In this document: in pieces, positions 12,976-62,379 of the stretch
Position numbering within the stretch: position 1 is the first letter of the stretch
Layout: each line of letters starts with the position of its first letter
NCBI GenBank assembly: GCA_037043015.1
Contig: CM073330.1
Coordinates: 5,915,263-5,979,262 of the forward strand
Source: Bryum argenteum
Lineage: Eukaryota; Streptophyta; Bryopsida; Bryales; Bryaceae
Direction of reading: 5' to 3'
Length of the DNA stretch: 64,000 nt
Notes under the pieces: model-generated
Told to the model about the DNA's origin: nothing
Database searches by the model: none
What the model saw: the letters and a program-made list of their open reading frames with translations, nothing else
Made by a program: the position numbers and the translations under genes

Positions 12976-15580
12976 TCATTTGCAGACTCGGAACTTGGCA
13001 AAAACATAGGGATACTGGCGCTGGTAAAAATTTCGGAACGTGTCACGCCACATGCAGCGGTGCGTCAGTGGCGACGCGCCCTTCAACACGTAGTGACTAC
13101 CGTCGAAGAAATCAGCTGAGTATTCGGGATACTCCGGCATGGGAACGAACCCAGGAAACGGCATGAACTCTGTGGAAGTCCATTCCCATCCTCCCGACCT
13201 CATCATCTCCACTTTCTCGGCGTTTGCATCGTTCACGATCAAGCTCCACTCGGGCTCGGTCATGATCCGGCCGCGTTGCCACGAGCAGTAAGCCTCGGCC
13301 TCCGAGAGGCTTGCGTATACTGGCTCGTTCGCCACCCGGGACCAGTGATTCGTGCCCGACGCGTTGTGGACGTAAAACTCGCCCTCGATCTTGCTCCAGG
13401 TCGCTGGCTCTGTCAGATTCTCACGCTGGAAGAACGCGAAGTCCAGTGGTTTCCAATACTCTTGCTTTCTGTACCCTCCCGCTTTGATGAAGTTCAGATA
13501 CTCCCCGATAGTCACTGGCTTGGTCGAGACTTTCAGTGGCTTGGTGACTGTCGTTATGAGCTTTGGGTACTCATTGTCCCACATAAAAGTGTCGTCTTTT
13601 GGATCGCCGCCGAGTGTTACGGTTCCTGGGGCAATTTCCACCATCGCAGGCTCCTCGGGCTCTACTATGTTGTGTACTCGAGCTCCGTTGCTCCGCACAC
13701 CATTCGTGACCCCATTGAAGCCCTGGCCACCAAGCATGATTGTTACTAACAATGCTCCAATGTCCAGTCGGAGCTCAAATGCTATTAATGGATCCATATT
13801 CCCTTCAGAAAACGCAACATATGTACAACGAGATAATGCAGAATTGTTACCTTTTTTATCAACCCATTCGTGGTCTGATGTGCACCATTTGTAATACCGT
13901 TCGTGGTCGTTCTAGTGGTTGCTGCAAACAAAAGATCACACATTATTAGAGAAGATGAAAGGGATAAGGTGAAAATGGCTTTCGAGGTCAGAGCAAGGGG
14001 CTTACTGTCATGGCCGTTTGAGGGCTGTTTGCGCATCTTCTTTTCGAAGCAGGTTTTGCGATATTGGGCCCGCATGTACCCCAGGGTTTCCAAGTGCATG
14101 TACTCGTGCTCGAGCGCCAGGATGATGAGCCGCGGGGTCAATTTGTTGCGGGACAGGGCCGAGAGGATGGTGGCTCGCATTTTCTGTACATAAGCTTCGA
14201 TTTCCTCGCGGCTGGGCCATTCAGGGGGCACTTCAGGATGGGAGTGACACTGCGTAGGATCCACCACGTTGGGATCAATGCCACGCGAGAACATGATGTC
14301 CATGGCAGACGGCGGACTATCAGAGCAAAGCTTCAGCTTCGCAAACGCTTGCAGATGTCCATAATAGAACTTGAACGGGTGACGAACATCGATGGGCTTC
14401 TCGCACCAGTCCATAAGCGACTGAAAAAAGATGTCCGTCGTAGCCCAGCACCGCTGAAACGCTTCTCGAAACGGGATAAGCATCTGCATTCCCCACATGG
14501 CATCACGCCACGCAACATCGATATGAAACCCAGCTTCGTTCGCCAGCCGATTGAAATCCCCGACGGTGAACTTGCGGGAAACTTCGACCAGCACGCGCTC
14601 GTCACGTTTGATGTGCACATCGTGCTCGGGAAGCGAAAGCTCCTCCGGGAAATTGAGGTGCATCTCCACGCGCCGCAACTTATCGTTCACGATCACCTCG
14701 TAGCGCCACGCCGCCTCTTCGGCTTCCGTGGTCGTGTGCCCCAGTAACGCGAGCGCGCACCGCATTCCGTTCTTGATGAAAAGCTCCGTCACGCCGGGAC
14801 GATCGTGGTAAGCTGCGTACAGCTTGCGCTTGTCCTTCCACATGTCTGCAAAGAAATGGCCATGTCAGGTGCGATCCATGCCAAGAATTGGAACGGGCGA
14901 GCTTGCTCAATTGCGTACTACTAACCAGCGCAGAGGAAGATCTGACACCGCATGCCAACGGCCGTAGACACATCGCGGAAAAATTGCACAGCGCCTTCGT
15001 CGGAGAAGTTGCCGACCGAACTCCCCAGCCACATGATGCACAGGTTCGCGTTCGGGTGCATGGCGCGCACCTGCCTCAGCCCTTGCATGTACTCACCCTC
15101 CACCATCTCAATACTGTCGGGAGCGATGCCTTGCGCCTCCAAATTCTGGCGAGCCTCCGCTAGAAACGAGCTCGAAACATCAATGCCCGCAAACTTGCAC
15201 CTGAACAATCACCACCCACTCTCCAATCAGTCTCGCATAAACAACAACAACAAAAATAATGCAATTGCAGAGAGTGTGTACGATACGGACCGGCCACGGA
15301 GTTTCTGATAGGCGGTTAAGACGATGCTCGATTTGCGAGCAGTGCCACACCCAAGCTCCACGATCACGCTTCCGTCGGGGATCGAGGCCGCGATCTCGTC
15401 CGCATGCTGCTTCAATCGACACTCCTCCACTTTAAACGGGTAATACTCTTCCAATTCCGTAATCTGCTCGTAGAGCTCGCTGCCACGCGCATCGTACAAT
15501 AAGCTGCAAGGTATCGATTTCACGGCTTTCTGCAGCCCGGCCAACACTTGCGACCGCGGCGACTCCCGAAAATTCCCCAT
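12976..15580 (-). CDS. EGT1: Egt1-type ergothioneine biosynthesis protein (EgtD methyltransferase + EgtB sulfoxide synthase fusion)
   Basis: Exons on the minus strand are 15580-15291, 15200-14926, 14845-14006, 13921-13851 and 13722-12976, with all phases matching, giving about 740 residues. Residues ~10-320 form a histidine-specific methyltransferase: YDARGSELYEQITELEEYYP, the SAM site VELGCGTARK (about 74-83) and LGSSVGNFS (155-163). Residues ~325-460 form a DinB-like domain with candidate iron-binding His352 (YYGHLQAF) and His435/His439 (LEHEYMHLETL). Residues ~520-740 form an FGE-sulfatase domain ending GGWEWTSTEF...PFPGF...HYVLKGASPLTHRCMWRDTFRNF. Fungal Egt1 has this order and makes hercynine and then hercynylcysteine sulfoxide; OvoA has the methyltransferase last, so it fits less well. 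Exon 4 encodes a Thr/Asn/Gly linker between the two halves. The last acceptor could instead lie about 54 bp further upstream (reading ..LRLDIG). A leader exon with donor near 15688 probably precedes the start. Confidence 0.9.
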
Positions 15581-23844: not shown

Positions 23845-24109
23845 CCATAACTTCATAGTCCACCCAACTATTGTGGGGTCCTTGGACCTTGTTGTATGGG
23901 TACCTCAAAGCCCTTTGGGGGGATACTATGTCAAGTATCTTCAAGGCACCAGTAACTAGCTAGAAACTAGCATAGTTATAGTGTTCATCCTCGAGAGGGC
24001 GAAGTAGTATAATTCTAATTTCCCCTTGTTTGGTGACCATCGGGTTATTAGCATTACGAACGAACACTTCATTCACGTCGCCCCCTTAGAAAGGGACAGG
24101 AGTTTCTAT
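23845..24109 (+). mobile_element. 5'-truncated tRNA-derived SINE
   Basis: It matches the body and tail of the full-length copies at 33.7 and 59.4 kb but lacks the tRNA-like head. It is flanked by a 20-bp duplication (23825-23844 and 24110-24129; 'aagtacatgt' at the right end of each) with two mismatches, which fixes both ends and indicates target-primed insertion. Confidence 0.85.
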
Positions 24110-24400
24110 CCATAAATTCAAGTACATGTTAGTTTAATTTAAAGTTACATTGATTGGTTGGACAAATAAAGTAAGTAGGTTAAAAAATAATAATCTGAAG
24201 TACATGTAAGAGATGTCTTATCCTGCAAATGTGCTGTCAGACAGACATGTTTTCGTCTCTAGCAAAGTTGTATGATATGAATGTGACTCATCCAAAGCCA
24301 CCGTCTGCTTCCAGCTGGTAACATACATGCAATCATCCTTCAAGCAACTCTCTCCCTCCCTCTCTGCTGTGAACACTTAACACAAGCACAATTCTAGTAA

Positions 24401-24844: not shown

Positions 24845-25475
24845 TAAGGTGTTCAAAAATGGCTCTATTTTCCTGAGCTATCTTGGTACTAGGCTATGAT
24901 TTTATTACTTGGGTGTGACGTTACTTGACTACTTGGTCAATTAATTAGCTTCTAGTGATCTAAAAAATTAGTTAGTTGGTCCTTGTCACTTGAGTTCTCA
25001 AAGATATTGGTAAATGTGGCTTCTTAGTTCTTGACTCTAATATGTGGGATTGAGAAGTGAGATTGCTAGCTCTGGCAGTATACTCCTAGAGGTAGTTCTA
25101 GTAAGACCTCTTCTTAGATTGTGGGAAATACAAAATATTCCCCACCCCCCCCTAGCTTTTGGCTTGGGTGTTGATGTAATGCTCAAATGATTAATACATT
25201 GCTTGGTTTAGAAAAGAAAAATAATGTAATGGATCAATTTTCAACAAGTGAATTGCATACAAATGTTACTAGTGCAAGCAATTTTAGTGCATGAGAAAAA
25301 TTAGTAGAAATTTATAGCAAGTGGAAATCAATCATCATTTCTGAACTCTTCTACGATTAGTTATGACTTTTTGAAGTTGGAAATATAGATGTTATTAGAG
25401 TGGTGCCATAAAAGTGACATCGTATAATATCTACAGTGAAGACTTGGTATTTTTATATGACATTACTATCAAGTA

Positions 25476-26044
25476 CAGTGGGGTACCAATCAAAATGTCG
25501 TTTCTGACTCTGCAGTGAGAAAAAATTCAGCACTGCCAACTTTGAAAGCCTCGTGAGAGCTCAAAAATTGGTATTTTAACTCGAAATTTTTAAGAAAGGT
25601 TTATCTTTAAGTTAATTACATGTATGCCAAATTTCAAGGCCAAACGTTTCACTGAAAAAAAGTTATTCAAAATCTACCAACATTGGTAGCTGCGGAATTT
25701 TTTTCACTGCTGCCAACTTTGACAGCGTCCCAAAGATTGAATAAATTTTTTATTACCATGAAATTCTTGGACCAAAAACCTCTTTAGGTTAAGAACATAT
25801 GAAAAAAAATTCAAGGCCAAAAGATTAATAAAAAAAAAGAAATCCACATTCTACCAACATGTGTAGTTGTGGGAAACAAATGGGGGAAACCATTTTGTTG
25901 CTACCAACTTTGACACCCTCCCCACGGTTGAGAAATTGTCTATTTACCATGAAATTTTTGGCACAATATGCTCTTTATGATGCCAACATTCATACCAAAT
26001 TTCAAGGTCAAAAATTATATATATAAAAAAAAACATTTACAATC
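25476..26044 (+). repeat. Left terminal inverted repeat of the Tc1-like element
   Basis: It pairs with 27689-28255 over nearly its whole length, ending at 'catttacaatc'. Sub-repeats recur at roughly 25530, 25705 and 25895. Confidence 0.9.
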
Positions 26045-26174
26045 ACAACGTGTATGTCTTCCTTTTGCCTCAATCACTTTGCTTGTAACCTAGAGGGCAT
26101 AGAATGACATAGTTGAAGGAGCTTTGTATCATTGATTAACCTCCACTCTCTTTCAATAACTACCTTCAAGTCAC

Positions 26175-27047
26175 CTAAATTTTTGGACATATGGGGCCAT
26201 GTTGCACAACATCTTTCACAATCTTCCAAAGGTTTTCAATTGGATTGAGATCGGGAGAATTTGCAGGTCAATCGAGCTTCTCCAAAAGGTGTGTTTGTCT
26301 CCATTCATCACATACTTTGCTACGATGAACGGGTGCGCCATCTTCCATGAGTAGTCCGTGTGGCACTCTACTCATAAAATGAAGCAACTCGACATTGTAA
26401 ACCATTTCAACAAAATCCTTACCAGAACGTCTATCATTGGACATAAAAACAAGTTGTGACTTTTGCCCTCCAAAGAAATGCACCCCAAATCATCAAAGAA
26501 GTTCTTCCACTCTTAAAAGTTGGAACTATACAACTTGATGCATAGCGCTCATATGCATTTCTCCAAAATGAATCTATTTAGAAATTTTTCCAACTTCAAA
26601 GGTAGACTCATATGTCCAAACAACTCTCTCCCATTCTTTTATAGTCCACCCACAATACTTTTGAGCAAATGCCAATCGTTTAGACATGTGACAATGTGTC
26701 GAAATGGTTTTTTAACAAATCGTCAAAAATGCCATTCTCATGTAAGGCCCTTCGAATAGTCGATCTAGACACTTGAGTAGAGCATATGTTAGTGATCTCA
26801 GAGTGTGTCGAGGTCGATGAGTTTTTGAAACACGTATACTAGCACGAACATCTCTATCACTAAGTTTTTCAAAGATGACTTCCACTACAAGGTTTTGCAC
26901 TTATAGGTTCCATTTTCTCAAAATCTTTTCACTATCCTCTCGAACTGTTCTAACATGGACACTAACAATAGATGCAATGTCAACTCCTGTTTTCCTTGCC
27001 TCACTCAAACCTACTATACGAGCTTGAGTTTCATCCGAAATGACCAT
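26175..27047 (-). pseudogene. Broken Tc1-type (DD34E) transposase
   Basis: Reading the minus strand with frame changes gives, in order, an N-terminal helix-turn-helix start (MVISDETQARIVGLSEA), a middle KRLAFAQKYCGWTIKEWERV and a catalytic region. WTYESTF stands where W-D-E-S is expected, so the first catalytic Asp appears to be Tyr. LLMEDGAPVHRSK carries the second Asp, and PANSPDLNPIEN carries the Glu. Counting the stop as one residue, 34 positions separate the second Asp from the Glu, the Tc1 spacing. Damage includes a TGA at 26268-26270 where Trp is expected before PANSPDLN, a frame change near 26895, and several stops at about 26500-26720. It cannot be active. Confidence 0.88.
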
Positions 27048-27688
27048 CACTCACCATCATCCCGCCTCACAACCTTCACTCAATCACCATACCTCACCGG
27101 TCACCACAAATCATCCATTAAAACTTAAAACCCATTCGGAATGCGTAAATAAATAAGTAACTTACAAGGTGGCTTGTCCTCTAAATTGCACCACACTCAT
27201 CTCACATACCTCACCAATCGGTTGTTAAGTCCCTTTTCTAGGTAACTCGAATGGAATGAAGTTCCGTGTGAGAGAGACATACCTCACTAGTCACCACAGG
27301 CATCTCATATACCTCGGAAATCATACCTCATACATTCATTCCATGCCTCATTCTCTCAATTAACTCATGTCATACAACATCACTTATTTCTCTCATCAAT
27401 CCACATAAATCCACCTCCTATAATGCTTCATTGCAAATGCAAGCAATCTTGTTGAGAGAAAAAATCTTCTTCATGCACGTATGGTCTCCAATTTTTGAAC
27501 AAGTGCACTTTTTGAGATGTGACAAGTGCACACAACTAAATTTGGCTATCCTTGATTTTTTTGAGAAGCATCTATGATTAGAGATTGCATCATCTTGAAA
27601 ATTTCAATCTAGAAGCATGATTGTATGACAGACTTCAACCATTTCAATATCTTTGATAAAAGGTATCTTACAACTACACACAATGGTA

Positions 27689-28255
27689 GATTGTAAATGT
27701 TTTTTTTTATATATATAATTTTTGACCTTGAAATTTGGTATGAATGTTGGCATCATAAAGAGCATATTGTGCCAAAAATTTCATGGTAAATAGACAATTT
27801 CTCAACCGTGGGGAGGGTGTCAAAGTTGGTAGCAACAAAATGGTTTCCCCCATTTGTTTCCCACAACTACACATGTTGGTAGAATGTGGATTTCTTTTTT
27901 TTATTAATCTTTTGGCCTTGAATTTTTTTCATATGTTCTTAACCTAAAGAGGTTTTTGGTCCAAGAATTTCATGGTAATAAAAAATTTATTCAATCTTTG
28001 GGACGCTGTCAAAGTTGGCAGCAGTGAAAAAAATTCCGCAGCTACCAATGTTGGTAGATTTTGAATAACTTTTTTTCAGTGAAACGTTTGGCCTTGAAAT
28101 TTGGCATACATGTAATTAACTTAAAGATAAACCTTTCTTAAAAATTTCGAGTTAAAATACCAATTTTTGAGCTCTCACGAGGCTTTCAAAGTTGGCAGTG
28201 CTGAATTTTTTCTCACTGCAGAGTCAGAAACGACATTTTGATTGGTACCCCACTG
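27689..28255 (-). repeat. Right terminal inverted repeat of the Tc1-like element
   Basis: It is the mirror of the left repeat, starting at 'gattgtaaatg' and ending at CAGTG/TA. The high identity of the two arms contrasts with the decayed transposase. Confidence 0.9.
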
Positions 28256-28257
28256 TA

Positions 28258-28632
28258 CATGTGACGGAAGATTAATATAGCTCCATTATGAGACCTACTC
28301 CACTTTAGACCACTTTACTATCACACATGAAGGGAAGAGCACAAGCCTCCTGAAAGGGGAAGGGCAGGAGCACCTTCTTTCACCTACTGATGTTGATTCG
28401 CAGAATATTTGAAGCCAGAATTAAATCACTTGATTTGGTAGAATTTTGAAGAATGAAATCAAATGTTGTCCAAAAAGAGCGTTTGCGTTTTTATTAGATT
28501 TTGTTTTCTTGTTTATTTTGTACCTAGTTTTGATTCAGTGCACTTTTCTGGTGCTTTGGAATCAGTTCGATTCTTTCAAGCTATGTTTGTTCTTTCTGGA
28601 GATTCTTAGGGATACACTATTTATGCATTTCA

Positions 28633-30551: not shown

Positions 30552-30566
30552 GTGCAAGAAACTATG

Positions 30567-30878
30567 AGGAGGTCGTGGGTTCTAAATCCCATGCCGGTGT
30601 GGTGCTCACCACTATAGTCCACCCAACTATTGTGGGAGGTCCTTGGACCTTGTTGTATGGGTACCTCAAAGCCCTTTGGGGGGATACTATGTCAAGTATC
30701 TTCAAGGCACTAGTAACTAGGCTAAAAACTAGCGTAGTTATAGTGTCCACCCTCGAGAGGGGGAAGTAGTATTGTTCTAATTTCCCCTTGTCCGGTGGCC
30801 ATTGGGATATTAGCATAATGAACAGACACTTCATTCACGCCGGCCCCTTAGAAAGGACTAGAGTTTCTACCTATCTAC
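30567..30878 (+). mobile_element. tRNA-derived SINE, head-truncated copy
   Basis: It begins inside the tRNA-like head at the box-B region (GTGGGTTCTAAATCCC) and runs through the family body to 'tttctacctatcta'. A 15-bp duplication flanks it: GTGCAAGAAACTATG at 30552-30566 and GTGCAGGAAACTATG at 30879-30893. Confidence 0.88.
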
Positions 30879-33652: not shown

Positions 33653-33988
33653 TATAGATAGGGGCCGGCCTAAATGAAGTGTCCGTTCGTAATGCTAATA
33701 TCCCGATGGCCACCGGACAAGGAGAAATTAGAACAATACTATTTCCCCCTCTCGAGGGTGGACACTATAACTACGCTAGTTTCTAGCCTAGTTACTAGTG
33801 CCTTGAAAATACTTGACATAGTATCCCCCCAAAGGGCTTTGAGGTACCCATACAACAATGTCCAAGGACCCCACAATAGTTGGGTGGACTATAGTGGTGA
33901 GCACCACGCCGGCATGGGGAATAGAACCCACGACCTCCTCATTGGGGGCCTGAGCCCTAACCACCAAGCCAAGGCTTGTGGTGCCTTC
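33653..33988 (-). mobile_element. tRNA-derived SINE, near full length
   Basis: In minus orientation the element starts with a tRNA-like head: box-A-like TGGCTTGGTGG and box-B-like GGGTTCTATTCCC. The conserved body follows, and it ends in 'cctatctat'. A 13-bp duplication ATAATAACATACA flanks it (33640-33652 and 33989-34001). Confidence 0.9.
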
Positions 33989-44849: not shown

Positions 44850-45244
44850 CTGCAGCTCTTTCCGTTCCACCGACCTCGACTTCGTCAACCTTCCTCGGCA
44901 TGGCCACCCTTCCGATTCATAATCCGACCTTGCCATTCTTCTTCCGTTCAACTGCTGGATTCCGACCAAGGCTTACTAAGAGCACTGATCAGCTGTCGAT
45001 CCTGCCAACTATGGAAATAGGGATACAATTCCGGAAGAGAAGGGTCTGGTATTATGTGGAAAGACCTCGAAGCCTTGCTCCTCACTCCACTTCGCCGATG
45101 CTCTCGTCACTTCATTTCGAGACTGTGTTGATCCTTCCAGCGGAATTTCCTTTGACAAGCAACAGAAACGAGCACCGATGATTGTAGAGGTCGCACGCAC
45201 TCGGGATGATTCTTACGAACTTCGGCCTGGATCCATGCCAGACT

Positions 45245-45264
45245 CTTCCAGATCATTCAAGATT
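45245..45264 (+). promoter_or_regulatory. Heat-shock element array, copy A
   Basis: Four consecutive 5-bp units alternate between nTTCn and nGAn types (TTC-GAt-TTC-GAt). Such alternating pentamers bind heat-shock factor. The array lies ~25 bp upstream of the TATA box and is kept in all three gene copies. Confidence 0.7.
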
Positions 45265-45288
45265 CCACTAAGGCTCTAATCTATTCTG

Positions 45289-45297
45289 TATATATAG
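45289..45297 (+). promoter_or_regulatory. TATA box, small heat-shock gene A
   Basis: 'tatatatag' lies 132 bp before the ATG and just downstream of the heat-shock elements. Confidence 0.7.
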
Positions 45298-45428
45298 ACT
45301 ACTTTGCTCATTTGAGTTCATCTCAAGCGTCTTCAACTGTACCGGCAATTTAAGAAAATCAAGTGCCAGCTTCTCGCTTTACTATCTGCAGCTTCATAGT
45401 CTAGACTCGACACACTCAACATAGCAGA

Positions 45429-46008
45429 ATGGCTCTAGTATTGTCACCGTGGTTTGGGCGAGGATGTGGCCGGCGTTCCACTTCGAGGTGCGGCTTCGGC
45501 AGCCCTGCTTTGTTCACCGACCTTATCATCGTCAAAGTTCCGTTACACAGACAACCTTCCAACGCTCGGGTAGTTCAGTGGGCGGAGACTCCCGAGGCCC
45601 ATGTCTTCACGCTTCGACTGCCAGGTATGGGCATGTACACATAAGTGTCTGATTTCGTTCTTTCATTCCTGCATGCTTGGAGTGGAAACTCATGCACATG
45701 TAATTATGGACTGTTGTTCAGGATTAAAAAAGGAGGACGTGCACATCGAGCTAGAAGACGACCGAGTTCTGTATATCAACTATCAGCAGTCCAAAGAAGC
45801 AGGCGCTGGAGAGGCTTCAACATCTGGATCGAAAGAGGAGACATTCAAGCCCAAGTTCAAGCTTCCAGAGAACGTGGATCTGGAGCAGATTAAAGCAGAG
45901 GTGACAAACGAGACGTTGACGGTTACTGTACCGAAGGCGAAGTCACTTCCTCCTCGCAAGGTCGATGTTGGAGATGGTCAAGCAGCAGCAACTTCATCGA
46001 CAAGTTAA
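45429..46008 (+). CDS. Class-I-like small heat-shock protein, copy A
   Basis: Exon 1 is 45429-45624 and exon 2 is 45722-46008, with a phase-1 intron of 97 bp, giving 160 residues. The splice recreates LPGLKKEDVHIELEDDRVLY, the classic start of the alpha-crystallin domain. The second consensus half is FKLPENVDLEQIKAEVTNETLTVTVPK. The N-terminal arm starts MALVLSPWFGRGCGRRS, and WAETPEAHVF precedes the intron. Small heat-shock proteins form oligomers that hold unfolding proteins until other chaperones act. No organelle targeting signal is obvious, so it is probably cytosolic. The linker in the middle (EAGAGEASTSGSKEE) replaces the usual conserved loop. Heat-shock elements and a TATA box precede it. 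Confidence 0.93.
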
Positions 46009-46180
46009 TCAATCTTAGTACGAAAAATTAGTGAACCATTTATGATGACGGCCAGTTATCTATTTGGATGTGAGTGCATGCAAATACATCAATGAAAGCT
46101 AAAAAGGAGCCGTAGAAGTGTAGAACCGATTGATTTTGATACCTTCTCGCATCTGTAACTAAAACAAAACTTTTGGTATA

Positions 46181-46809
46181 AAATCTCTGACTCGTCTAAG
46201 TTCTTCTCGTTATCATGTCATGGCACAATTTGTGAAGAATCGCATGTACGTGACAAAGTGACAATACTACCGTACAATATTTATTCCGATTGAATTTTTC
46301 ATCCCGTGATACTAATCTAGCATCCTTGAAAGAAGCATACCACGAGTGAAAACAGACCGACTCATATTTAAACAGCTCGGTAGCTGGGGTTCAACTTTCC
46401 GCTCATGTAAAGAGACATTGACCGATTGTATGGTAGCTGAATTTCAACTTCTGTATAAAATCAGCAGAAAAATAATTCGCGACAGACCACGTTGTCTTTT
46501 GACGAGCACCGGACTAACGCACCGGATCAACGCACCGGATGTCCTACCAATGTCGGTAGACACTTCGGGCTTGGATCGAGAGGTCCCAGGTTCGATGTGG
46601 ACGATTCTCGAGTCATTACTGGCGTGTTAACCGGAGGGGTGGCGCACCGGATCCGACCTTACCCGTAACTGGGCAGGCCATCGGTGCAGAGCTTCACAAC
46701 TCTGTGCTTTTGCACATCATTTCTTGTGTATTACGGGGAAGGCTCTTTGCATGAACAGGCCGCTCGATCACTTGATACCTAGCATTCATGGCTCTTACTT
46801 CATTATTTC
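46181..46809. other. Spacer between small heat-shock genes A and B
   Basis: No gene is seen. A GC-richer patch at 46490-46690 with repeated 'gcaccggat' is not explained. Confidence 0.5.
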
Positions 46810-47174
46810 ACCATGTTCCAACGACCTCGACTCCGTCGACCTTCCTCGGCCATGGCCACCCTTCCGGCTCATACTCCGATCTCGCCATTCTCCGGCCATT
46901 CAACTACTGGATTCCGATGATGGCTCATGAAGCCCAGTGACCAGCTCTCGATCCGACGAACTATGGGAACCAGGAAAGAATTTCGGAGGAGAAGATCTGG
47001 TGATATGTGGAAGGACCTCGGAGTCTTGCTCCTCACTCCACCGGTGCTCTCGTCACTTCATTCCAAGACGGTGTCGATCCTTCCGTCCAACAAGCAACAG
47101 AATCCAGCATCGATGATTGTAGACGACGCACGCAGTCGGGATGATTCTTAAGAACTTCAGCCTGAATCCAGACT

Positions 47175-47194
47175 CTTCCAGATCATTCAAGATT
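47175..47194 (+). promoter_or_regulatory. Heat-shock element array, copy B
   Basis: The same four alternating pentamers as in copy A, with identical sequence, ~25 bp upstream of 'tatatag' (47221-47227). Confidence 0.7.
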
Positions 47195-47362
47195 CCACTT
47201 CGGCTCTAATCTAATCAGTTTATATAGACGACTTTGCTAAATAGGGTTCTCCTCAAGCGTCTTTAATTAAATGTATCTGCAATTCAAGAAATCCAAGTCT
47301 TAGCTTCTCACTTTACTACCTTCAGCTTCATAGTTTATACTCGACACACTCCACAAAGCAGA

Positions 47363-47947
47363 ATGGCACTAGTATTGTCACCGTGGTTTGGGCGAGGATG
47401 TGGCCGACGTTCCACTTCGAGGTGCGGTTTCGGCAGCCCTTCGTTGTTCACTGACCTCGTCATCGTCAAAGTTCCGCTACACAGACAACCTTCCAACGCT
47501 CGGGTAGTTCAATGGGCGGAGACTCCCGAGGCCCATGTCTTCACGCTTCGTTTACCAGGTATGGACATGTACCGTGGAGTGGTTCATTTCGTTCTTTCAT
47601 TCAGACATGCTTAGAGTGGAGGCTGGAACACATGCATGGACTGTTGTTCAGGATTAAAAAAGGAGGACGCGCACATCGAGCTAGAAGACGAACGCGTTCT
47701 GTACATCAGCTACCAGCAGCCTAAAGAAGAAGGCGCTGGAGAGGCTTCGACTTCTGGATCGAAAGAGGAGACATTGAAGCGCAAGTTCAAGCTTCCAGAG
47801 AACGTGGACATGGAGCAGATCAAAGCAGAGGTGACAAACGAGACAATGACGGTCACTGTACCGAAGTGGACGGCGAAGTCAGTCCCTCCTCGCAAGGTCG
47901 ATGTCAGTGATAATCCAGGAGCTACTACTTCGACGTCGACAAGTTGA
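47363..47947 (+). CDS. Class-I-like small heat-shock protein, copy B
   Basis: Exon 1 is 47363-47558 and exon 2 is 47652-47947, giving 163 residues with the same intron position and phase as copy A. It differs from A and C by the conservative changes SLFTDLV, KEDAHIELEDERVLY and ENVDMEQIKAEVTNETMTVTV. It also has an insert of three residues (KWTAKS) just after the last conserved motif, and its tail is different. Start, splice sites and domain are intact, so it should be functional. It is a tandem duplicate of copy A, about 1.9 kb downstream. Confidence 0.92.
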
Positions 47948-49608
47948 TCTTACTGTGTGGAAATTTATGTACCATGTATGATAACGGCTACCCATCTCTT
48001 TCGATGTGATTGTATGCAAATAGGTAGAGGCAATCACACCTGGATAGGACACCATGATGATGTGCTTTGAGGGCGACGCTGTGCACCTGTCAGTGTCAGT
48101 TGGCCCGCCAGCTTCAGACTGTAATTTGTCGATAAAAGGATATCATACGTTTCCTGGTGAGTATCCTGCCTGGTTGTCAATAGAACTTTCTGGCTTACTA
48201 GAAAAAGAAGTCGTATTGCAGAACTTGAATCTACCTTCTTCACGTTTAGTAGATGCAAAGATTAAACCAGGTCACTCTCAGTAGTGTCCACCATAAATCA
48301 AAGGCACACATAGTTTGATGCACTGACCTGTCTAACCATATCCATGGTGTTCCATCAATCTGAGGATATGCTAGCCATGTGTGTACAAGTTAGCTTTTTG
48401 TGTAAAGAAATTTCACTGAAGACAAAACGTTGATCGCCAAGAATGGCATTAGCCAGAGCAATCACCGTGTAGCCATCAGCTTGGAGGATTCATGTGAGCT
48501 GACTGTCCTCTCCATCTTTGTTTCACGGGGTCGACGGTCAATCCACACACAAGACCGCCTTCCATCTATAAGAATCGACAATCAATCTCTTAGGAATTTG
48601 CAGATAAGAAGTTGTGTACCGTCGTCTTGCATTAAGGAAACTGCCTCTGGGACAAGAAGCCCAAAGACACTGCGAGATTCAACCCCATGTTGAGTCCAAA
48701 TGAACTATCACATAGTCCCGTTCAGGTCACAAAGGTCGTGAGAGCTTGGTCTACACAAGATTTCGCACCTGGCCTTGCCTTGCACACCGAACACATTCTG
48801 CACAAAATGGGCACAGACAAGTGAGAAAGCACGCGCTCAATGGGCCTCACACATGCCTCCTCTTGATTTTGTCTTCTCAGTCGTTTCAGGAACAGAATCT
48901 CATCAATGGACCCAACTCCAACTTCCAACTTAAAGAACTGTGACAAAACCAGAAATAGAGGCCCTGCAAGATCTTTTGCAACTCTTTTGAGCCTCGACTG
49001 TGAGTCACTTGTACTAGTCTCGGAGTACTGCAATTGTAGGAAAGATGTAGATTGATTGATCCTTGCATAAAGTCGTTAGAGAAAGAAACGTAAATACCTT
49101 ATTGCCCGTTCGCAAGTTCTCAAAGGATATGGCGAACCTACTCTTGTAGAAGAACCTCAGGTGGAGGAGCTCGCTTGCGACACCAGAACGGTGTCATATT
49201 CCTGGTGCAAAGAGAAATTCGATAAGTTGCACTTGTTTGTCGACATGGTTAGATGTTCAAGTTCAAATCCACTATGCGATCTGATCAAATTTGAAATTTC
49301 ACCAAAAGCTCATAAATAATAAGATTCTCAGCATCCACAAGAAAAGCACTTAGCATTGTGTTGTTCGTCGAAGCGTACTGTGGTAAGTACCTGATGTAAC
49401 CGCAGGAAGTTCGGAGAGAATGTCGCATCTGAGAACCAGTCTTCTGGCACGGACAAAGTACTCCCCATTGACGGATGGATTGTGCTTTCATTTCAAGTGT
49501 AATGACGAATCGCTGAGATCTATGTCTCCCGAGCGAGTATTTTGGTTGGTCTCCAACCCACAGAGGAAAGCCGCTTTTCACAAGTTAGCCCGACTGAACA
49601 AGAGGTGG
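47948..49608. other. Intergenic region, convergent side
   Basis: It holds the 3' UTRs of heat-shock gene B and of the coiled-coil gene. Several short open frames (for example 48054-48284 and, on the minus strand, 48722-49033) show no recognisable domains. Confidence 0.5.
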
Positions 49609-59414: not shown

Positions 59415-59781
59415 GATAGATAGATAGATAGAAACTCCGGTCCCTTTCTAAGGGGCCGGCGTGAATGAAGTGTCCGTTCGTAATGCTAATATCCCGATGG
59501 CCACCGGACAAGGGGAAATTGGAACAATACTACTTCCCCCTCTCGAGGGTGGACACTATAACTACGCTAGTTTCTAGCCTAGTTACTAGTGCCTTGAGGA
59601 TACTTGACATAGTATCCCCCCAAAGGACTTTGAGGTACCCATACAACAAGGTCCAAGGACCTCCCACAATAGTTGGGTGGACTATAGTGGTGAGCACCAC
59701 GCCGGCATGGGGAATGGAACCCACAACCTCCTCAATGGGGGCCATGAGCCCCAACCACCAAGCCAAGGCTTGTGGTGCCTG
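59415..59781 (-). mobile_element. Full-length tRNA-derived SINE with (TCTA)n tail
   Basis: Reading the minus strand: box A-like TGGCTTGGTGG, box B-like GGGTTCCATTCCC, and a body of ~280 bp. A tail of tetranucleotide repeats (GATA on the + strand, 59415-59431) ends it. An 11-bp duplication ACCATGACTCA flanks it (59404-59414 and 59782-59792). It is the longest family member here (367 bp). Confidence 0.93.
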
Positions 59782-59792
59782 ACCATGACTCA

Positions 59793-61049
59793 ATTAATGA
59801 TAGGATTGCAACCACCTTCAAGGTTGTGTGCTTCCTCAAACCTACCTGTTCAAATTTATATCACTCACACATTTGTGATTTGAGTTGTAAGATCTCCCTT
59901 TACAAATGCATCAAAAGAAGAAAACAACAATGTTACTTAAAGAATAGTTGAGTGAAGAAAGTGCCACAATGCAGCTTCCAAGGAAATCCTGGCCAAGGGG
60001 CATCAAAGGGGATTAAAAGGCTTGGTTCACATTTTTTCTGAGTTTGTATATAAACTACTCATGGAATACATTTTGGCATTTGAGTCACTGAACACAGTTT
60101 CCCTTTAGAATATAGCTTCACGTAAGGAGGATGCCAATCATAAATGGCACCTAAATGGTCAATCAATGCCAATATGATAAATCAGCTTCTTGTGAACAAT
60201 GTAGAAAACTATGATCATCTTGAGCTATATTGAATATAGCGAGAGGACTTCATGCCAGTGATGAAAGTTCGACATTCGAAGCTTCGGCGATGAAGAACCC
60301 TTAATCTATGTATTCACCATTGTGTATGAGATAGCATGTAGTCAAACTTCAGAGAGAATCATATTAAAGGCATAGCTAGATAATAATTTAGTGTTCAATT
60401 CAGTTCTAGCTTTCACACTAAACGCAAATTTTGTCAAAATAGCGTTTTCAGTCTAAATGGCACTCCTCCTTCAAGATTGGCAATTTGGAAAACTATGTGA
60501 CATTATAAAAGTCAAAGGTGATATTACAGAATATGAATTGATATTATATAAATATGAGTGATTTTCTAGAAAAAATGTGATTCACATAGAATACCATTGT
60601 GTAGATATGCAAATGCAAGCTTTGGTGTGACAAAAATGGCACATGACATAGTGCCATTTTATAAAATTAAAGTTACTTTCTAAGGTCAAACACAATGAAT
60701 TGATTTCTTTGGATAGATATTGCTACACAATACATAGATTTGAAGTGATATACTGGATGTTCTAAGACCATGTTGGTATTTTGTGAAATTGGGTCTCCAC
60801 GTAACATCTCTGGAAATGGAGTAAATTTCTGTACCATTCTCACTTGATTGAAGCTTGTTTTAGGAAATACCTCGAAGTATGATTCCTCAGCAAGAAAACT
60901 GAGTATCACAGATCCCCTGACTTGCTGCATCGTTACTGCAGGTTAATTGCTCCTTGTGAACTTTGTCATGAACATGCGATTCTTCACAAATTGTGCCATG
61001 CCTCGATTGATAAGCGGAGGAAATTTAGACGGGAGTTTTTTTTACAAGA
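59793..61049. other. AT-rich intergenic DNA
   Basis: No ORF with a recognisable domain and no transposon ends were found. Confidence 0.5.
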
Positions 61050-61217
61050 AGTTTTGTTTCAATTTCAGATGCAAGAAAGCATCAAGATCAATCGGTTCTA
61101 CACTTCTACAGCTCCTATTTAGATTTGATTGCTTTGATGTATTTGTATGCATTCACATCTTAATGAATAACTGGCCGTCATCATAAATGGTACACTACTT
61201 TTTTGTACTAAGATTCA

Positions 61218-61797
61218 CTAACTTGTCGATGTAGTTGCTGCTGCTTGACCATCACCAACATCGACCTTGCGAGGAGGGACTGACTTCGCCTTCGGTACAG
61301 TGACCGTCAACGTCTCGTTTGTCACCTCTGCTTTGATGTGCTCCAGATCCACGTTCTCTGGAAGCTTGAACTTGCGCTTGAATGTCTCCTCTTTCGATCC
61401 AGATGTTGAAGCCTCTCCAGCGCCTGCTTCTTTGGGCTGCTGGTAGCTGATGTACAGAACTCGGTCGTCTTCTAGCTCGATGTGCACGTCCTCCTTTTTC
61501 AATCCTGAGCAACAGTCCATAATTACATGTGCATGAGTTTCCACTCCAAGCATGCATGAATGAAAGAACGAAATCAGACACTTATGGGTACATGCCCATA
61601 CCTGGCAGACGAAGCGTGAAGACATGGGCCTCGGGAGTCTCCGCCCATTGAACTACCCGAGCGTTGGAAGGTTGTCTGTGTAACGGAACTTTGACGATGA
61701 TAAGGTCGGTGAACAAAGCAGGGCTGCCGAAGCCGCACCTCGAAGTGGAACGCCGGCCACATCCTCGCCCAAACCACGGTGACAATACTAGAGCCAT
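61218..61797 (-). CDS. Class-I-like small heat-shock protein, copy C (inverted)
   Basis: Exon 1 is 61797-61602 and exon 2 is 61504-61218, giving 160 residues. It is closer to copy A than B is: the first exon encodes the same protein as A, and exon 2 differs by only a few residues (YISYQQPKE, FKRKFKLPENVDLEHIKAE, TTSTS). The alpha-crystallin domain is intact with GLKKEDVHIELEDDRVLY. It lies on the opposite strand about 13 kb from copies A and B, beyond the large coiled-coil gene, with promoter and intron conserved. Confidence 0.93.
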
Positions 61798-61928
61798 TCT
61801 GCTATGTTGAGTGTGTCGAGTCTAGACTATGAAGCTGAAGATTGTAAAGTGAGAAGCTGGCACTTAATGTTCTTGAATTGCAGATACAATTGAAGACGCT
61901 TGAGATGAACTCAGATGAGTAAATTCGT

Positions 61929-61981
61929 CTATATATACTGATTTGATTAGAGCTGTAGTGGAATCTTGAATGGACTGGAAG
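61929..61981 (-). promoter_or_regulatory. Heat-shock elements and TATA box of copy C
   Basis: The minus strand carries TTC-G-TTC-GA pentamers (61981-61962; the second unit has lost the A) and then a 'tatata' at about 61936-61930. The layout equals copies A and B. Confidence 0.65.
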
Positions 61982-62379
61982 AGTCTGGATCCAGGCAGAA
62001 GTTCGTAAGAATCATCCCGAGTGCGTGCGACCTCTACAATCATCGGTGCTCGTTTCTGTTGCTTGTTGGAGGAAATTCCGACGGAAGGATCAACACCGTC
62101 TCGGAATGATGTGACGAGAGCAACGGCGAAGTGGAGTGAGGAGCAAGACTTCGAGGTCCTTCTACATAATACCAGACCCTTCTCCGTGGGAATTTTTTCC
62201 CGATTCCCATAGATCGTAGGATTGAGAGCTGGTCCCTTTGCTTCATTAGCCTCGGTCGGAACCCAGCAATTGAACGGATGAAGAATGGCGACATCAGAGT
62301 ATGAGCCGGATGGGTGGCCATGGCTGGCGAGTCGCGACGTCAGGGTCGGTGGAACGGAAAGAGCTGCGGAGGGTTAACC

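Follow-up and report, generated by a model that had tools for sequence, protein, structure and literature searches.

The window, a 64,000-nucleotide stretch of DNA from the moss Bryum argenteum (positions 5915263-5979262 of contig C10, in a genome of 258.8 Mb and 25 contigs), carries on its minus strand, at 15580-12976, a nuclear gene that we read with high confidence as EGT1, a fusion enzyme predicted from its sequence to make hercynylcysteine sulfoxide through its EgtD and EgtB halves and to work with a separate EGT2 lyase. The EgtD half would trimethylate histidine with S-adenosylmethionine (SAM) to give hercynine, and the EgtB half would couple hercynine to cysteine at a three-histidine iron site with the help of O2, with hercynylcysteine sulfoxide as the product. 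From this product the antioxidant ergothioneine would be freed by a pyridoxal phosphate (PLP)-dependent C-S lyase encoded by a gene of its own (EGT2, with two candidates in the genome). Direct support for this reading comes from the gene structure, the order of the domains, the conserved residues, the one locus found, a place in the green clade and the Egt2-like genes, and further support from the fold modelled for a 96%-identical relative; the reactions themselves, and which Egt2-like paralogue acts, we infer. The gene is a well-supported new member of the published EGT1 family, and plant ergothioneine synthesis is already in print, contrary to the novelty implied by the initial annotation of this stretch, which was justified until 2026.

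Gene structure and domain composition

The 740-residue protein is obtained by joining five minus-strand exons at GT-AG sites. Exon 1 (15291-15580) opens with the ATG at 15580 and encodes the first part of the EgtD domain with the SAM motif VELGCGTARK, exon 2 (14926-15200) continues this domain, and exon 3 (14006-14845) holds its end together with a DinB-like iron domain containing His352, His435, His439 and Glu441, located by residue conservation and alignment to EgtB-IV. Exon 4, of 71 nt (13851-13921, residues ~469-492), lies within a linker, the rest of which is found in exon 5 (12976-13722) ahead of the FGE/sulfoxide synthase domain, Tyr690 and the stop codon (12976-12978). The introns measure 90 nt (15201-15290), 80 nt (14846-14925), 84 nt (13922-14005) and 128 nt (13723-13850). 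A relative of 739 residues and 96% identity, P0001, aligns continuously across all four exon junctions; its source contig has 2,697 bases and may be a transcript. The longest stop-free minus-strand frame spans 359 residues, against a mean of 136 and a maximum of 262 in 500 Markov-sampled sequences. Neither Rfam nor tRNA scanning produced a match anywhere in the window. The initial annotation had the coordinates, the five exons, the protein length, the SAM motif and the three histidines right; the strand, which it omitted, is minus.

In the spliced model EgtD precedes EgtB within one polypeptide. Pfam recognised Methyltransf_33 (PF10017, E = 1.4e-70) over residues 9-304, the N-terminal histidine-specific SAM methyltransferase domain, and FGE-sulfatase (PF03781, E = 1.1e-23) over residues 516-652 in the C-terminal domain. 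The DinB-like part was assigned by alignment to EgtB-IV and OvoA and from a structure model of P0001. This model, which is of P0001 and not of the window protein, was fed by an alignment of 50 of the 97 homologues that passed E<=1e-3 out of 7995 candidates scored; it matches solved EgtD and EgtB structures, with the whole EgtB half covered. Its predicted local distance difference test score falls below 50 at residues 469-510, the linker that contains exon 4. The linker (13851-13921 and the start of exon 5) is Asn-Gly-rich, and in the moss relative P0002 it is expanded to approximate NG(A/V)HQT repeats. An Egt1-type fusion in plant DNA, as first proposed, is borne out by the Pfam EgtD and FGE matches, the conserved iron site, the spliced model and the continuity of P0001 through the junctions.

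Active sites, partner genes and predicted function

Residues were counted in 84 of the 97 hits (48 green, 21 fungal, 14 bacterial EgtB and the Binatia protein P0085) plus the window protein, excluding 13 partial, odd or short rows and grouping unnamed rows by tree position or similarity. Judged by their aligned positions, Tyr29, Tyr46, Asn161, Tyr201, Glu276 and Ser278 correspond to the residues with which M. smegmatis EgtD binds histidine; 45-48 of the 48 green rows and 20-21 of the 21 fungal rows retain them. Each histidine of the three-histidine iron site (His352, His435 and His439), and Glu441 with them, recurs in 46-48 of the 48 green rows, in all 21 fungal rows and in all 14 bacterial EgtB rows. 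In MthEgtB, the glutamyl moiety of gamma-glutamylcysteine is bound by Asp416 and Arg420. These two residues and Trp415, given as substrate-binding in PMC4768315, correspond to Tyr725, Tyr729 and Phe724 in the moss protein; the equivalents of Tyr725 and Tyr729 are tyrosines in 19 and 20 of the 21 fungal rows, and 17 of the 21 fungi retain the tryptophan. Since the tyrosines at the Asp416 and Arg420 places are common to fungal Egt1, we infer that plant EGT1, as fungal Egt1, would use free cysteine and not gamma-glutamylcysteine. Tyr690 is the counterpart of the catalytic Tyr377 of MthEgtB, whose change to Phe strongly reduces synthase activity (PMC10903977). The conversion of histidine to hercynine and then to hercynylcysteine sulfoxide predicted by the initial annotation is very likely, and moss EGT1 very probably makes the ergothioneine precursor.

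For the last step, the initial annotation had suggested looking for an Egt2 gene, and two Egt2-like loci were found in the same genome, L024 on C8 (~9119222-9120966) and L025 on C7 (~13562300-13564229), the only such loci retrieved with the C8 protein as query. The best PDB match of both is Neurospora Egt2 (5uts; E = 1.5e-29 and 7.4e-29). With key residues taken from a paper on a pepper desulfhydrase (PMC10585658), both proteins keep the PLP lysine and Tyr134 and lack Arg75, whose place in the multiple alignment is taken by Trp (C8) and Phe (C7), the latter being Pro in the HMMER pairwise alignment. The two loci are Egt2/L-cysteine desulfhydrase paralogues, 43-53% identical by exon and with introns at matching places. 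A genome search with PF00266 (38 candidates, 12 scored) returned Nfs1-like and other loci and no Egt2-like ones; among the loci, L008 is a confirmed cysteine desulfurase, which L007 resembles. A TIGR04343 search gave seven hits, all under the cut-off, two of which pointed to the Egt2-like loci. Either paralogue or another lyase may finish the ergothioneine pathway in mosses.

Several observations weigh against the pathway as proposed. Pfam reported no DinB domain in the EGT1 protein at E<=1e-3, and the NCBIfam matches (EgtD, SenA, EgtB and OvoA-N) are all under their curated cut-offs, with SenA scoring above EgtB. No row carries Arg at the Neurospora Egt2 Arg75 place among 122 Egt2-like rows, non-angiosperms included, which makes the last step less certain. 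Thuja callus contained no ergothioneine despite having EGT1 and EGT2 genes, according to Kock et al. (2026, PMC13358676).

The order of the NCBIfam scores could mean that the EgtB half belongs with SenA-like selenoneine synthases or OvoA-like ovothiol enzymes and does not serve ergothioneine synthesis. This is very unlikely, as the SenA model NF041186 reaches 190 bits against a cut-off of 420 and the OvoA N-terminal model TIGR04344 143 bits against 400, the half shares its polypeptide with a histidine methyltransferase whose EgtD histidine site is intact, and in half-gene trees, where SenA and OvoA rows are absent, it groups with fungal Egt1 against bacteria. To our knowledge SenA is not fused to EgtD. 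The methyltransferase of OvoA sits at its C terminus (PMC10903977). Selenoneine could be a side product of EGT1, by analogy with S. pombe egt1 (PMC4020840). A further alternative is a conserved but altered enzyme, making for example hercynine only, or a silent gene. We hold this to be highly improbable for the moss, considering the key residues kept in both catalytic halves, the reading frame, which runs without breaks, and the ergothioneine present in Physcomitrium patens, another moss that carries EGT1 and EGT2 (Kock et al., PMC13358676). An enzyme for ergothioneine synthesis is the reading we retain.

Relatives and origin of the fusion

The best named relatives are two proteins of the moss Ceratodon purpureus (70% and 67% identity), encoded on two chromosomes; a single EGT1 locus was found in the genome studied here. 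Identity is 44-52% to named liverworts, ferns, gymnosperms and Selaginella and 25-31% to named fungi. The contrast with seed plants drawn by the initial annotation is not supported, the nearest named relative being the moss at 70%. In a full-length tree of 78 rows (77 of the 97 hits, of 560-960 residues, and the window protein), the window protein groups with mosses inside a green clade with a Shimodaira-Hasegawa-like approximate likelihood ratio test (SH-aLRT) support of 100, and the branching broadly tracks plant groups. Because one locus was found and the green clade broadly follows plant groups, EGT1 was probably inherited within green plants. Fungal Egt1 shares the domain order, as would be expected of fungal or bacterial contamination or a recent horizontal transfer into the moss. 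The probability of such an origin is close to nil in light of the fall in identity from Ceratodon through other land plants to fungi, the agreement of the tree with plant groups and the position of the gene near 5.93 Mb within a 16.8 Mb contig; contamination had already been judged unlikely on first inspection. The initial annotation had offered ancient transfer or loss elsewhere. Absence from other plants agrees with the report of no EGT1 in angiosperms by Kock et al. (PMC13358676), and inheritance within green plants is the better description of the origin.

To place the two halves, quick and unrooted trees were built with 15 green and 10 fungal rows, the window protein and bacterial rows: for EgtB 44 (40 of 80 loci and four database proteins) and for EgtD 37 (25 of 45 loci and 12 database proteins). 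A branch separates green and fungal rows together from every bacterial row placed, both in the EgtB half (SH-aLRT 99, P0058 inside) and in the EgtD half (SH-aLRT 98.9); holding green and fungal EgtB rows together with P0058 left out gave an approximately unbiased test p-value of 0.56. The comparison with fungal Egt1 called for at the outset places the window protein with green rows, and green with fungal rows against bacteria. These trees favour a common eukaryotic origin of green and fungal Egt1, with an old transfer between eukaryotes as the alternative. P0058, a 787-residue fusion, neighbours the green clade when full-length proteins or EgtB halves are compared; in the EgtD-half trees it falls with a bacterial row in one and is unplaced in the other. 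Seven environmental rows fell inside green algae in one of the EgtD-half trees.

Among 80 prokaryote loci kept of 207, checked on the matched strand for open reading frames of at least 300 residues, none had one frame spanning both halves, and 45 of 80 had an egtD-like frame close to egtB on the same strand. Rare bacterial EgtD-EgtB fusions are P0085 (Candidatus Binatia) and P0261 (partial, Myxococcales).

The Egt2-like enzymes were compared in a biased sample of 122 rows, picked by similarity to the moss proteins (120 listed of 3223 hits and the two moss loci). At the Tyr134 place, 96 rows have Y and 26 have F. Y is found in each of the 13 rows identified as non-angiosperm, among them the two moss loci and two presumably from Ginkgo by their Gb_ prefix, and the 17 named rows with F are all angiosperms. 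As a separate matter, loss of Egt2 residues together with EGT1 in angiosperms was considered and set aside: many angiosperm rows keep Y at Tyr134, giving no clean co-loss, and Arg75 is replaced in 122 of 122 rows, non-angiosperms too. According to PMC10585658, the pepper desulfhydrase has Phe at the Tyr134 place and neither Arg75 nor Phe343.

A broader and tentative proposal, which we regard as doubtful, is that the Egt1 fusion is ancient in eukaryotes and common to green plants and fungi, not a fungal invention passed on, and that the L-cysteine desulfhydrases of flowering plants are remnants of EGT2, partnerless since EGT1 vanished. The second part is suggested because Tyr134 is kept in all 13 non-angiosperm rows, with Phe in 26 of 122 and the named ones angiosperm. 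Were both parts true, the retention of an Egt2-like enzyme by flowering plants that have no Egt1 would be accounted for, and moss knockouts could test what ergothioneine does in plants.

Other features of the window and known systems

Elsewhere in the window, three Hsp20 gene regions, 83-90% alike, lie at 44852-46259 (+), 46815-48022 (+) and, inverted, 60960-62367 (-), with a Pfam HSP20 match on two. Two 572-nt inverted repeats (25473-26044 and 27689-28258, 99.65% identical) enclose ~2.8 kb, and 25473-28258 looks like a recently inserted terminal-inverted-repeat element; a target-site duplication was looked for at it and no clear one was found. Members of a repeat family of ~230-330 nt, 90-95% identical, are scattered at 23855-24113, 30565-30877, 33660-33986 and 59424-59780.

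Plant EGT1 has been described before. A 2015 paper presented a Physcomitrella homologue with the three domains, without settling what such sequences do (PMC4659905), and Kock et al. (April 2026, PMC13358676) described both EGT1 and EGT2 from bryophytes, lycophytes, ferns and gymnosperms, along with ergothioneine in sterile cultures. No further report of plant EGT1 was recognised by titles and opening lines of abstracts, in a literature mostly outside subscription papers, and the parts of Kock et al. consulted describe neither a gene tree nor an Egt2 residue comparison. To this published work we add the half-gene trees, the residue comparison of plant Egt2-like enzymes, the genome of a moss in which EGT1 looks complete and two Egt2-like genes are present, and tree evidence for inheritance through the plant lineage.

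The closest known system is P. patens EGT1 (Pp3c20_13320; PMC13358676, PMC4659905), like the window gene in its SAM methyltransferase-DinB-FGE order, its moss lineage and its two-gene pathway with EGT2; the window gene comes from another moss, no difference in function between the two is known, and the likeness is by published description, the P. patens sequence being outside the comparison. Fungal Egt1 (S. pombe SPBC1604.01, Neurospora crassa NcEgt-1) resembles the moss gene in fusing EgtD to EgtB, in its iron ligands and in its catalytic tyrosine, as well as in having tyrosines at the MthEgtB Asp416 and Arg420 places (in rows from fungi other than these two), whereas its named rows are only 25-31% identical and form a clade separate from the green rows. 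Bacterial EgtD and EgtB (best loci from Rokubacteria, Acidobacteriota and others, with a cyanobacterial EgtB-IV among the solved structures) share the folds and active-site residues, yet they are encoded by separate genes, in contrast to the one fused gene of the moss.
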